From Asaia lannensis NBRC 102526 (GTDB lineage: Bacteria; Pseudomonadota; Alphaproteobacteria; Acetobacterales; Acetobacteraceae): a stretch of 64,000 nucleotides of DNA. The stretch lies in NCBI RefSeq assembly GCF_024054035.1, contig NZ_JAMXQU010000002.1, positions 248,001 through 312,000 on the forward strand, given 5' to 3'. This document shows, piece after piece, positions 8,599 through 23,271 of the stretch. Under the pieces are notes generated by a model. That model was given only the letters and a program-made list of their open reading frames with translations. It did not search any database and had not been told where the DNA came from. A program made the translations under genes and the position numbers. The stretch's first letter is position 1; the number at the start of each line of letters is the position of its first letter.

Positions 8599-8685
8599 GC
8601 CCAGATGGCGGAATTGGTAGACGCGCAGGTTTCAGGTACCTGTGTCCGCAAGGACGTGGAAGTTCGAGTCTTCTTCTGGGCACCA
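8599..8685 (+). tRNA. tRNA-Leu (anticodon CAG)
   Basis: An 87-base tRNA with encoded CCA. The acceptor stem is GCCCAGA with TCTGGGC, and the discriminator base is A. The anticodon stem CAGGT/ACCTG encloses the loop TTCAGGT, giving CAG. The long variable arm (GTCCGCAAGGAC) is of the class II type expected for leucine. The T loop reads TTCGAGT. It decodes CUG, the main leucine codon in GC-rich genomes. Confidence 0.97.
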
Positions 8686-20279: not shown

Positions 20280-21110
<831 letters not shown>

Positions 21111-21318
21111 TGGCGGCCATCCTTTGACAGGGTTACTCGAGTGAGCGGACCATGCTCAGGACGCATGAGGAAGTCAACGACTCTTCCTGACACGAGATGT
21201 TAAGGAGTAATTAAATACCGGCCTTTATACTCGTGCCGATCTGTTGACGGTGGCCCGGCAACGTCGGTCGGATGCCTCTGCCGGTCGTTTCCCACCTTTT
21301 TCCCTGTCAGGACAATGC

Positions 21319-22347
21319 ATGTTGGACGCTGCTTTTTCCGGTCTCATGCACCTTGTTCGCTCTTCGTCCGACCGGGAACGCGATACAGGCTGGCGGCCCA
21401 GACACTACTCCCCCGGTCGGGAAGCTGCTTTTCTGGATAGCCTTCTTGAAACGCTCCGCTCCGCAATATCGGTCCCGGACGGGCTCAAGCGGGCTTTCGA
21501 CCAGTTCTGTCAGGCCACCACGCCCGAGCGCGGGCTGATCATGAGCTCGGGTCCGCTTGTCATCCCCATCCCTACGGAACCGCAGCTGCATATCCTGCAC
21601 TCCTGGCCCGTGCGCGATGGAAACATACGCAGCCGGCTTGGCGGGATACGAACGACCACCAATCTGTGCCTGCGGGCCATTGCCGAAATCAGGCACCAGG
21701 GCGAAATCGGGCTGATCGCCTATTACCCGCGCGGTTTTTCAAGGCGAGCAGCAGATTCATGCCGCCGTATTCTCAACACCCTCGTCCAGACGGCGGCCGC
21801 CATGATCGAGGTCGATCATCGCTATCGCGTTCTGTTGCGCGCCCTGCCCTTCGACCCCCTGACCCATCTGCCGGTCTGGGCCCTGTTCAAGGAAAAAGCG
21901 GAGCGTCGTTTTGCCCGACTGGATCAGGAAAGCCTTCCTGCCACGCTGATGCTGGTCTGCTTCTCGGGACTGCTTACAACACCGAGCGATATTGTGGAGG
22001 CCGAAGAGGCCGTAGAACAGATCGCCCATGTCCGCGATGCGATCAATTTCCTGCAAAGAGCCATACGACCGACCGATCTGATCGGACAACTCGACCGCGA
22101 AAGCTATGTACTCTGGCTGGATGGCGGTGACCGTTTTGCATCAGTCGAACGCGCCGAGATGATCTGCAAGCGCAGATACATGTGTTCAGCGGGGGCCAAT
22201 CCGCTCGTCTCGGTCAAGATCGGCCTCGTCACACGCGAACCGGGCTCGACCGACCCGCTGGATGTGTTTTTCGAGAGAGCCAGACTGGCCCTCTCGATTG
22301 CACAGGAAGACGGGGTCGACTGGCACTTCGCCCATGAGAGCGCGTAA
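21319..22347 (+). CDS. Protein with degenerate GGDEF domain (probably not a cyclase)
   Basis: A 342-residue protein in two parts. Residues about 20-165 are a soluble region with GAF-like features (GLIMSSGPLVIPIP, GLIAYYPRGFSRRAADSCRRIL). From about 178, DPLTHLPVWALFKEKAERRFA matches the opening of a GGDEF domain (DxLTxLxNR), but the Asn-Arg is replaced. At about 250-267, RPTDLIGQLDRESYVLWL aligns with RxxDxxxRxGGDEFxxLL, so the catalytic GGDEF is lost (here LDRES). It should not make c-di-GMP and may sense or scaffold instead. The ATG at 21319 is used; a TTG at 21244 is an in-frame alternative. It lies between two - strand operons. Confidence 0.75.
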   Translation: MLDAAFSGLMHLVRSSSDRERDTGWRPRHYSPGREAAFLDSLLETLRSAISVPDGLKRAFDQFCQATTPERGLIMSSGPLVIPIPTEPQLHILHSWPVRDGNIRSRLGGIRTTTNLCLRAIAEIRHQGEIGLIAYYPRGFSRRAADSCRRILNTLVQTAAAMIEVDHRYRVLLRALPFDPLTHLPVWALFKEKAERRFARLDQESLPATLMLVCFSGLLTTPSDIVEAEEAVEQIAHVRDAINFLQRAIRPTDLIGQLDRESYVLWLDGGDRFASVERAEMICKRRYMCSAGANPLVSVKIGLVTREPGSTDPLDVFFERARLALSIAQEDGVDWHFAHESA

Positions 22348-23271
22348 TCAGGACGCGCGTATCAGCGTCCCCGAGCCCTTGTGGGTGAAGAGTTCGAGCA
22401 GGCAGGCATGAGGAACGCGTCCATCGAGAATGACCGCAGCGCTCGCCCCGGCCTTGACCGCAGCAAGGCAGGTCTCGACCTTGGGTATCATACCACCTGA
22501 AATCGAACCGTCGGCAATGCGTCGGCGCGCCTCATCGGCGGTCAGTTCGGGGATGAGCTTGCCATTTTCGTCGAGAACGCCCGCGACATCAGTCAGCATC
22601 AGGAGACGCGATGCATTGACGCTGCCGGCGATAGCGCCCGCTGCCGTATCCGCATTGATATTATAGGTCTCGCCGTTCTCGCCCACGCCGACAGGCGCAA
22701 TGACCGGAATAAGCCCCGAGCCGAGAAGAGAGAACAGCACGCGCGGGTCGATCTTGACCGGCTCACCCACAAAACCGAGATCCTGCGGTGCCTCTGCTCC
22801 GGAGCGCGCGTCGCGGCTGGTGTGCAGCAGCTTGCGCGCCTGGAGCAATCCACCGTCCTTGCCCGAAATGCCCACGGCAAGCGCACCGGCACGATTGATC
22901 AGATTGGCCACCTGCTTGTTGACGCTGCCCGACAGGACCATCTCGATCACATCGATCGCGGCCTGATCGGTCACACGCAGCCCGTCGACGAACCGGGATT
23001 CAATATTCAGACGCTTGAGCATGGCGCTGATCTGCGGGCCGCCGCCATGCACGACGATGGGATTGATACCCACGAGTTTGAGCAGGGCAATGTCACGCCC
23101 GAAGGCGCTCGACAGATGATCCTTGCCCATGGCGTTTCCGCCGTATTTCACAACGATCGTATCGCCTGCGTAGCGCCGCAGAAACGGCAGGGCACTGGCA
23201 AGGAGGGCTGCCTGCTGCTGGCCCTCGTCATTCATATCGGGGAGCGACAGCTCCGTCAGATCCTTTGTCAT
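22348..23271 (-). CDS. argB: Acetylglutamate kinase
   Basis: Second step of arginine biosynthesis: phosphorylates N-acetylglutamate. VVKYGGNAMG and the substrate region VVHGGGPQISAML lie in the N-terminal half. ITADTAAGAIAGS-like sequence (NINADTAAGAIAGSVNA) and GGMIPKVETCLAAVKAGA are the nucleotide-binding blocks. Length is 307, of the longer, arginine-regulated class. Its ATG overlaps the engB stop (ATGA), so this arginine gene is embedded in the rpmH-yidC transcript. Confidence 0.97.
   Translation of the reverse strand: MTKDLTELSLPDMNDEGQQQAALLASALPFLRRYAGDTIVVKYGGNAMGKDHLSSAFGRDIALLKLVGINPIVVHGGGPQISAMLKRLNIESRFVDGLRVTDQAAIDVIEMVLSGSVNKQVANLINRAGALAVGISGKDGGLLQARKLLHTSRDARSGAEAPQDLGFVGEPVKIDPRVLFSLLGSGLIPVIAPVGVGENGETYNINADTAAGAIAGSVNASRLLMLTDVAGVLDENGKLIPELTADEARRRIADGSISGGMIPKVETCLAAVKAGASAAVILDGRVPHACLLELFTHKGSGTLIRAS

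Follow-up and report, generated by a model that had tools for sequence, protein, structure and literature searches.

The open reading frame at 21319-22347 of the window, by which we mean the whole stretch of 64,000 nucleotides that was analysed, comes from Asaia, a genus of acetic acid bacteria, and lies among genes that we take, from their protein sequences, to be dapD, dapE, argB and yihA. Upstream and divergent to it is dapD (20280-21110, minus strand), which is followed by dapE, and downstream and convergent to it is argB (22348-23271, minus strand), which is preceded by yihA. The stop codons of the open reading frame and of argB stand back to back. A preliminary description of this DNA placed the gene between two operons. 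The gene is indeed flanked by dapD-dapE and argB-yihA, but the two are halves of one gene row, since argB and dapD are direct neighbours in genomes without the family gene. The gene is thus an antisense gene inside the conserved row yihA-argB-dapD-dapE. The features of the locus are collected in Table 1.

Table 1. Features of the gene, its protein and the adjoining intergenic region (window positions)
Feature	Position	Strand	Basis
CDS, 342 aa, GAF - helix - degenerate GGDEF	21319..22347	+	ATG start at 21319, AGGA 7 bases upstream, TAA stop at 22345-22347
GAF-fold domain, residues 28-141	21400..21741	+	AlphaFold model of residues 28-176; VIA-align
Long helix from GAF to GGDEF, residues 142-175	21742..21843	+	whole-protein model
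Degenerate GGDEF domain, residues 176-342	21844..22344	+	Pfam; profile against PDB sequences; Z 20-21
R200, equivalent of PleD R313, second half of the c-di-GMP inhibition site (I-site)	21916..21918	+	R in 91/91 aligned members
RPTD, RxxD of the I-site; R250 and D253, equivalents of PleD R359 and D362	22066..22077	+	R and D in 91/91 aligned members
DRESY in the place of GGDEF, residues 259-263	22093..22107	+	alignment
R278, Arg typical of the family, one helical turn before the PleD R390 position	22150..22152	+	91/91 aligned members
Divergent intergenic region between dapD (-) and the CDS (+)	21111..21318	.	conserved blocks in 9 Asaia/Swaminathania genomes

Orthologues are found open at the same place in eight other Asaia/Swaminathania genomes, with one further copy that is broken; the gene is shared by Asaia bogorensis, krungthepensis, siamensis, platycodi, astilbis and sp. 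W19 and by Swaminathania salitolerans. In the wider family, dapD is divergently upstream in 81 of the 91 aligned members, and argB is convergent wherever it is seen (36/36 loci). The remaining 10 members, seven with an intact and three with a degenerate GGDEF motif, show no dapD within the stretch read, and several of them are on short stretches. In the intergenic region, a TATA(G/C)T-like -10 element stands ahead of the gene in most of the nine Asaia/Swaminathania genomes. The block by dapD (gcggaccatgctcaggac ... ggaagtcaacga) is near-invariant in these nine genomes and has TTGACT on the dapD strand; it may serve as the promoter of dapD or as a site for a regulator. The sole RNA gene of the window is a tRNA-Leu (cag) at 8599-8685 on the plus strand (Rfam at gathering score, ARAGORN). 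Rfam matched the window once, at 8599-8682 within this tRNA, and the idea of an RNA element at the locus was rejected; so was a phage-derived gene, since PHROGs gave no match at E 0.1.

Predicted in full with AlphaFold, the protein reaches a mean pLDDT of 85.9 and a pTM of 0.78. That the C-terminal part belongs to the GGDEF family, as had been proposed, came from both profile and fold. The Pfam profile PF00990 matches the protein with an E of 2.2e-5 and 24.7 bits against a cut-off of 23.8, the best stretch being residues 243-332; the match is marginal, as a whole-genome scan with the same profile omitted this copy from its list. Searched against PDB sequences, a profile of 60 family members gave a best E of 1.8e-27 to the GGDEF domain 3icl, with PleD at 8e-16, and did better than phmmer with the window protein alone, which returned only a peroxiredoxin (E 0.087). 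The NCBIfam profiles gave weak matches to the window protein only, far below the cut-off, with PleD among them (E 0.21). In structural comparison by VIA-align, residues 176-342 gave Z scores of 21.2 to SadC, 20.9 to PleD (2wb4) and 20.4 to 3bre, with an rmsd of 2.4-2.5 Å over 158 residues to SadC and PleD.

The N-terminal part had been called GAF-like, and its predicted fold bears this out, though no GAF profile exceeds the cut-off. Predicted separately, residues 28-176 have a pLDDT of 87.8 and a pTM of 0.83, and superimpose on the GAF domain of PtsP (3ci6) with a Z score of 12.1 and 3.6 Å over 127 residues. GAF domains or phytochromes predominate among the best 50 rows of this VIA-align comparison; Foldseek alone gave weak matches (best E 4.8e-3). 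Pfam GAF showed no match to the window protein among those listed at E up to 10, a search in which the HMMER filters drop weak matches, and in relatives GAF profiles stay below the cut-off (E 0.086 in L009 and 0.094 in L028). Longer members of the family extend N-terminally beyond the GAF part by some 150 residues or more, an extension that the Asaia protein does not have. Among those of the longer members that were scanned, L028 matched a PAS profile over the cut-off and L018 and L024 below it, and none was found at E 0.1 in L012, L013, L038 and L048. An extra stretch in the helix before RxxD, IAHVRD (residues 235-240, 22021-22038), is present only in the nine Asaia/Swaminathania rows of the 91-row alignment.

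A similarity search with the window protein matched 221 of 397 Acetobacteraceae genomes. The 91 aligned members, which cover part of these genomes, were obtained from 106 ORF hits in 118 loci by dropping 15 hits: the second copies L053-L059 of seven Asaia/Swaminathania records; L105 and L108, which repeat the genes L047 and L087; three pieces of the broken copy L010; and L031, L032 and L116, which are not members of the family. GG(D/E)EF together with the metal-binding Asp is found in 40 members, the motif is lost in 50, and one (L072) has GGDEF without the metal Asp.

In the window protein, D259-R260-E261-S262-Y263 is in register with GGDEF. The preliminary description was right that the motif is lost, but its reading of LDRES is off by one residue, the true motif being DRESY; it was also right that the DxLTxLP frame (DPLTHLP, residues 179-185) and an inhibitory RxxD (RPTD, residues 250-253) are retained. 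DRES[YF] is found in all nine Asaia/Swaminathania proteins aligned, and other genera differ. The PleD residues described as serving metal, substrate or transition state include D327, F331, K332 and E371 (PMC12943098), and their equivalents are replaced by C214, L218, L219 and S262. Of what marks an active diguanylate cyclase, GG(D/E)EF, the metal Asp and the lysine of PleD Lys332, the protein has DRESY, C214 and L219 instead. We infer from these replacements that it has no diguanylate cyclase activity, in support of the earlier suggestion that it cannot make c-di-GMP. The same erosion is seen across the family: equivalents of E371 and K332 are missing in 50/50 degenerate members and that of D327 in 48/50, and 29 different five-residue motifs occur among the 50. 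Partly eroded motifs (GGDVF, GGDIF, AGDVF) are also found at the same locus.

The c-di-GMP inhibition site, on the other hand, is kept. In PleD, this I-site is described as RxxD, R313 given by the neighbouring domain, and R390 (PMC7288161). We mapped R200 to PleD R313 via a PleD relative and via the structural alignment to 1w25, in which the numbering is shifted by 113 where the domain begins. R200, R250, D253 and R278 are present in all 50 degenerate members and in all 41 members of the intact clade described below; most of these sequences were found because they resemble the window protein, which may tip the sample toward RPTD. In the degenerate subtree, which covers 32.5 substitutions per site, 310 sites were ranked by slowness, and R200, R250, R278 and D253 take ranks 2, 3, 4 and 8. 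The five GGDEF positions rank 101, 142, 70, 132 and 53, and the metal site 140. With the I-site under some of the tightest constraint in the protein, the earlier proposal of a sensor or scaffold would narrow toward c-di-GMP binding. The pattern is partly inherited, since the I-site is just as invariant among the 41 members of the intact clade. The position of PleD R390 is not conserved, with Arg in 22/50 degenerate members and M281 in the window protein. That R278 replaces R390 is a guess. In DgcR, the Arg equivalent to R390 is reported to be too distant to take part in the I-site (PMC8041772), so an Arg at this position is not needed in every I-site.

How the family came to this state is suggested by its tree (LG+G4, 303 columns, motif columns left out). 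The 40 intact members group with L072 in a single starred clade (99/99), and its branch separates them from every one of the 50 degenerate members. One intact member of this clade, L028, comes from a different family of the class, which probably places the root within the clade and makes the loss of the motif a single event. One loss and then divergence into 29 motifs is the simplest explanation of these sequences rather than a proof, because L028 is one of the flagged long branches and the drawn root is weak (70/92 for the split beside it).

Taken as a pattern, a degenerate A-site with an intact I-site has been documented in c-di-GMP receptors (PMC3509222, PMC7112168). The window protein combines DRESY at residues 259-263 with RPTD at 250-253, and R200 stands at the place of the second Arg, which in PleD comes from the neighbouring domain; of the residues looked for in a PopA-type receptor, the Arg at the PleD R390 position is missing. 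The balance of the evidence tips, by a modest measure, toward the gene encoding a c-di-GMP receptor derived from a diguanylate cyclase, and the former cyclase would now probably be a receiver of c-di-GMP and not its maker. We argue that the protein could dimerise through its GAF domain and helix, and that a c-di-GMP dimer could bind between the RxxD of one GGDEF domain and R200 of the other. Bound c-di-GMP would then lock the domains in an arrangement that is read by a partner protein, and the GAF domain may add a second input. As the protein has no output domain, it would act via protein contacts, as PopA does.

It is conceivable that the conserved Arg and Asp residues serve the fold or the dimer instead, and that the protein is a scaffold or a GAF sensor which binds no c-di-GMP. 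No ligand role is known for L201, D271, E277, A279, G302, R306 and W335, yet these sites are as slow or as invariant across the degenerate members, and the equivalent of PleD R390 is lost, as this explanation would have it. GGDEF domains outside the family speak against it. Among 103 distinct domains, RxxD is present in 44/73 intact and 5/30 degenerate ones, RxxD together with R200 in 18/73 and 3/30, and the equivalent of R278 is Arg in 11/103 (9/73 intact, 2/30 degenerate); some motifs counted here as degenerate (GDDEF, GGEEY, SGDKF) may be active, and the weakest alignments are unsure. The control set takes the top-scoring match from each of 30 genomes of the class, 29 best matches from 22 family-carrying genomes, four from the window's genome, and 40 regions picked from the middle and weak part of the match list of family-carrying genomes to obtain degenerate ones; 29 of the 30 degenerate domains come from genomes with the family gene. 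Since 25 of the 30 do without RxxD, the I-site residues are not required by the fold.

Members at loci found by dapD searches point the same way. This set has 11 members, four of which are already among the 91 (including two of its eight degenerate ones), and some of its genomes also match the window protein in the similarity search. All eight degenerate members keep R200, R250, D253 and R278, and so do two of the three intact ones (L113 and L114). The third, L241 of genome G190, has an intact GGDEF and has lost the I-site, with GAGE at the RxxD position and R200 deleted; it is possibly, judging from these residues, a cyclase free of product inhibition. With L241 and the 25 outside domains doing without RxxD or R200, neither the GGDEF domain nor this family needs these residues to fold. 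We therefore regard a role in fold or dimer alone as unlikely, though it is the strongest of the competing explanations.

Less probable still is that the protein acts in trans on another cyclase or phosphodiesterase, through mixed dimers formed by GAF, helix and GGDEF, with or without c-di-GMP. Its predicted architecture is of a type that would dimerise, the genome encodes other GGDEF and EAL proteins, and GGDEF/EAL proteins of E. coli have been reported to interact (PMC5635695). The conserved neighbours of the gene, however, are biosynthetic genes and not c-di-GMP enzymes. A degenerate GGDEF domain that senses GTP has been described in Caulobacter CC3396 (PMC7288161), and an acidic residue at the third motif position, E261 in the window protein, is present in 26/50 degenerate members. 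A sensor holding GTP at the old active site was rejected as very improbable, because the equivalents of PleD D327, F331 and K332 are replaced and the motif drifts freely among relatives.

Pairwise dN/dS among the nine Asaia/Swaminathania orthologues (36 pairs) ranges over 0.04-0.21 for the whole gene and 0.03-0.16 for the GGDEF part alone, values that are rough because dS is near saturation in Asaia. The open reading frame is a real gene under purifying selection. A decaying pseudogene, to which the lost active site and a copy split over several frames in one Asaia draft (L010, genome G001) might point, was rejected on these ratios as barely credible, the frame being open in the window and in eight other Asaia/Swaminathania copies, and the break in L010 being a likely draft error since the adjoining argB of G001 is split too.

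PopA of Caulobacter crescentus carries receiver domains where the window protein has a GAF domain. The two are alike, in a match made by description only, in that PopA is described as a c-di-GMP receptor with a degenerate active site and an intact I-site (PMC3509222). PelD of Pseudomonas aeruginosa and Bacillus cereus shares with the window protein a GAF domain and a degenerate GGDEF domain, and its RxxD I-site is reported to bind c-di-GMP (PMC7112168). PelD differs in having a transmembrane region and lying in pel loci, whereas the highest 19-residue hydropathy of the window protein is only 1.47 and its gene lies among dap and arg genes. In addition, a third Arg, R402, is reported to take part in the PelD site (PMC7112168), where the window protein has Met at the R390 position. 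SgmT of Myxococcus xanthus, likewise with GAF and a degenerate GGDEF (GGGVF) with RHPD, is described as a c-di-GMP receptor with an intact I-site (PMC3509222, PMC7112168), but it is a hybrid histidine kinase and the window protein has no kinase. Diguanylate cyclases of the PleD/WspR type have the same GGDEF fold and the same RxxD and R313 residues, and differ in the catalytic residues that the window protein is missing.

The kind of protein proposed here, a receptor with a degenerate GGDEF and an intact I-site, is already known, and the dapD-linked family of GAF-degenerate GGDEF proteins is new. Judged by the titles and abstract openings listed, the open-access papers searched include none on such a family in acetic acid bacteria, and a survey of c-di-GMP genes in alphaproteobacteria (PMC9756655) uses the words degenerate, I-site, dapD and Asaia nowhere in its main text.

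If the proposed role is true, acetic acid bacteria would have an unrecognised receptor family inside a row of lysine/cell-wall (dap) and arginine genes. It was reportedly in acetic acid bacteria that c-di-GMP was found (Ross, 1987), and the family would offer a candidate receptor besides the PilZ protein in these bacteria, including Asaia, a mosquito symbiont. Moreover, the conversion of an enzyme into a receptor for its own product has so far mostly been argued from single proteins. The value of this family is that a series from enzyme to presumed receptor is preserved at one locus, and because that locus holds intact, partly and fully eroded orthologues, the steps could be tested protein by protein. 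We tentatively suggest, as quite possible though short of probable, that a syntenic gene of Acetobacteraceae went from a feedback-inhibited PAS-GAF diguanylate cyclase to a pure c-di-GMP receptor, with the active site lost once and drifting into at least 29 motifs, the PAS part shed in several lineages and the I-site unchanged.

Such a receptor would take its c-di-GMP from other GGDEF enzymes encoded in the genome. Besides this gene, the window's genome carries four GGDEF domains, one PilZ domain and, over the cut-off, three EAL domains. Of 394 Acetobacteraceae genomes searched, all with a completeness of at least 90%, 39 gave no GGDEF match, and the dapD loci of 20 of these were read. None of the 20 has a family ORF beside dapD, and none matched in the search with the window protein. 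In 17 of them argB and dapD are 61-206 bases apart; in the other three (G131, G187, G229), neither argB nor a family ORF was seen in 1.5 kb at dapD. The family gene is also absent from G062, which has one sub-threshold GGDEF match. The 20 genomes fall in seven genera, so that the co-absence agrees with a dependence on c-di-GMP without proving it. The co-loss is one-directional and weaker than hoped: 13 genomes have GGDEF domains yet no family gene, with argB and dapD adjacent (G024, G074, G092, G105, G154, G166, G173, G214, G239, G385, G464, G479 and G486), and in six more with GGDEF domains no family ORF was seen upstream of dapD (G060, G085, G126, G133, G205 and G378). In one of the 13, G024, a GGEEF protein of another kind (L116:2624-3820) lies on the far side of dapD, with no member between argB and dapD. 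The 20 listed genomes without a GGDEF match (G021, G061, G064, G072 and 16 others) are 1.9-3.0 Mb in size, and the GGDEF-less Acetobacteraceae seem to have lost c-di-GMP synthesis.
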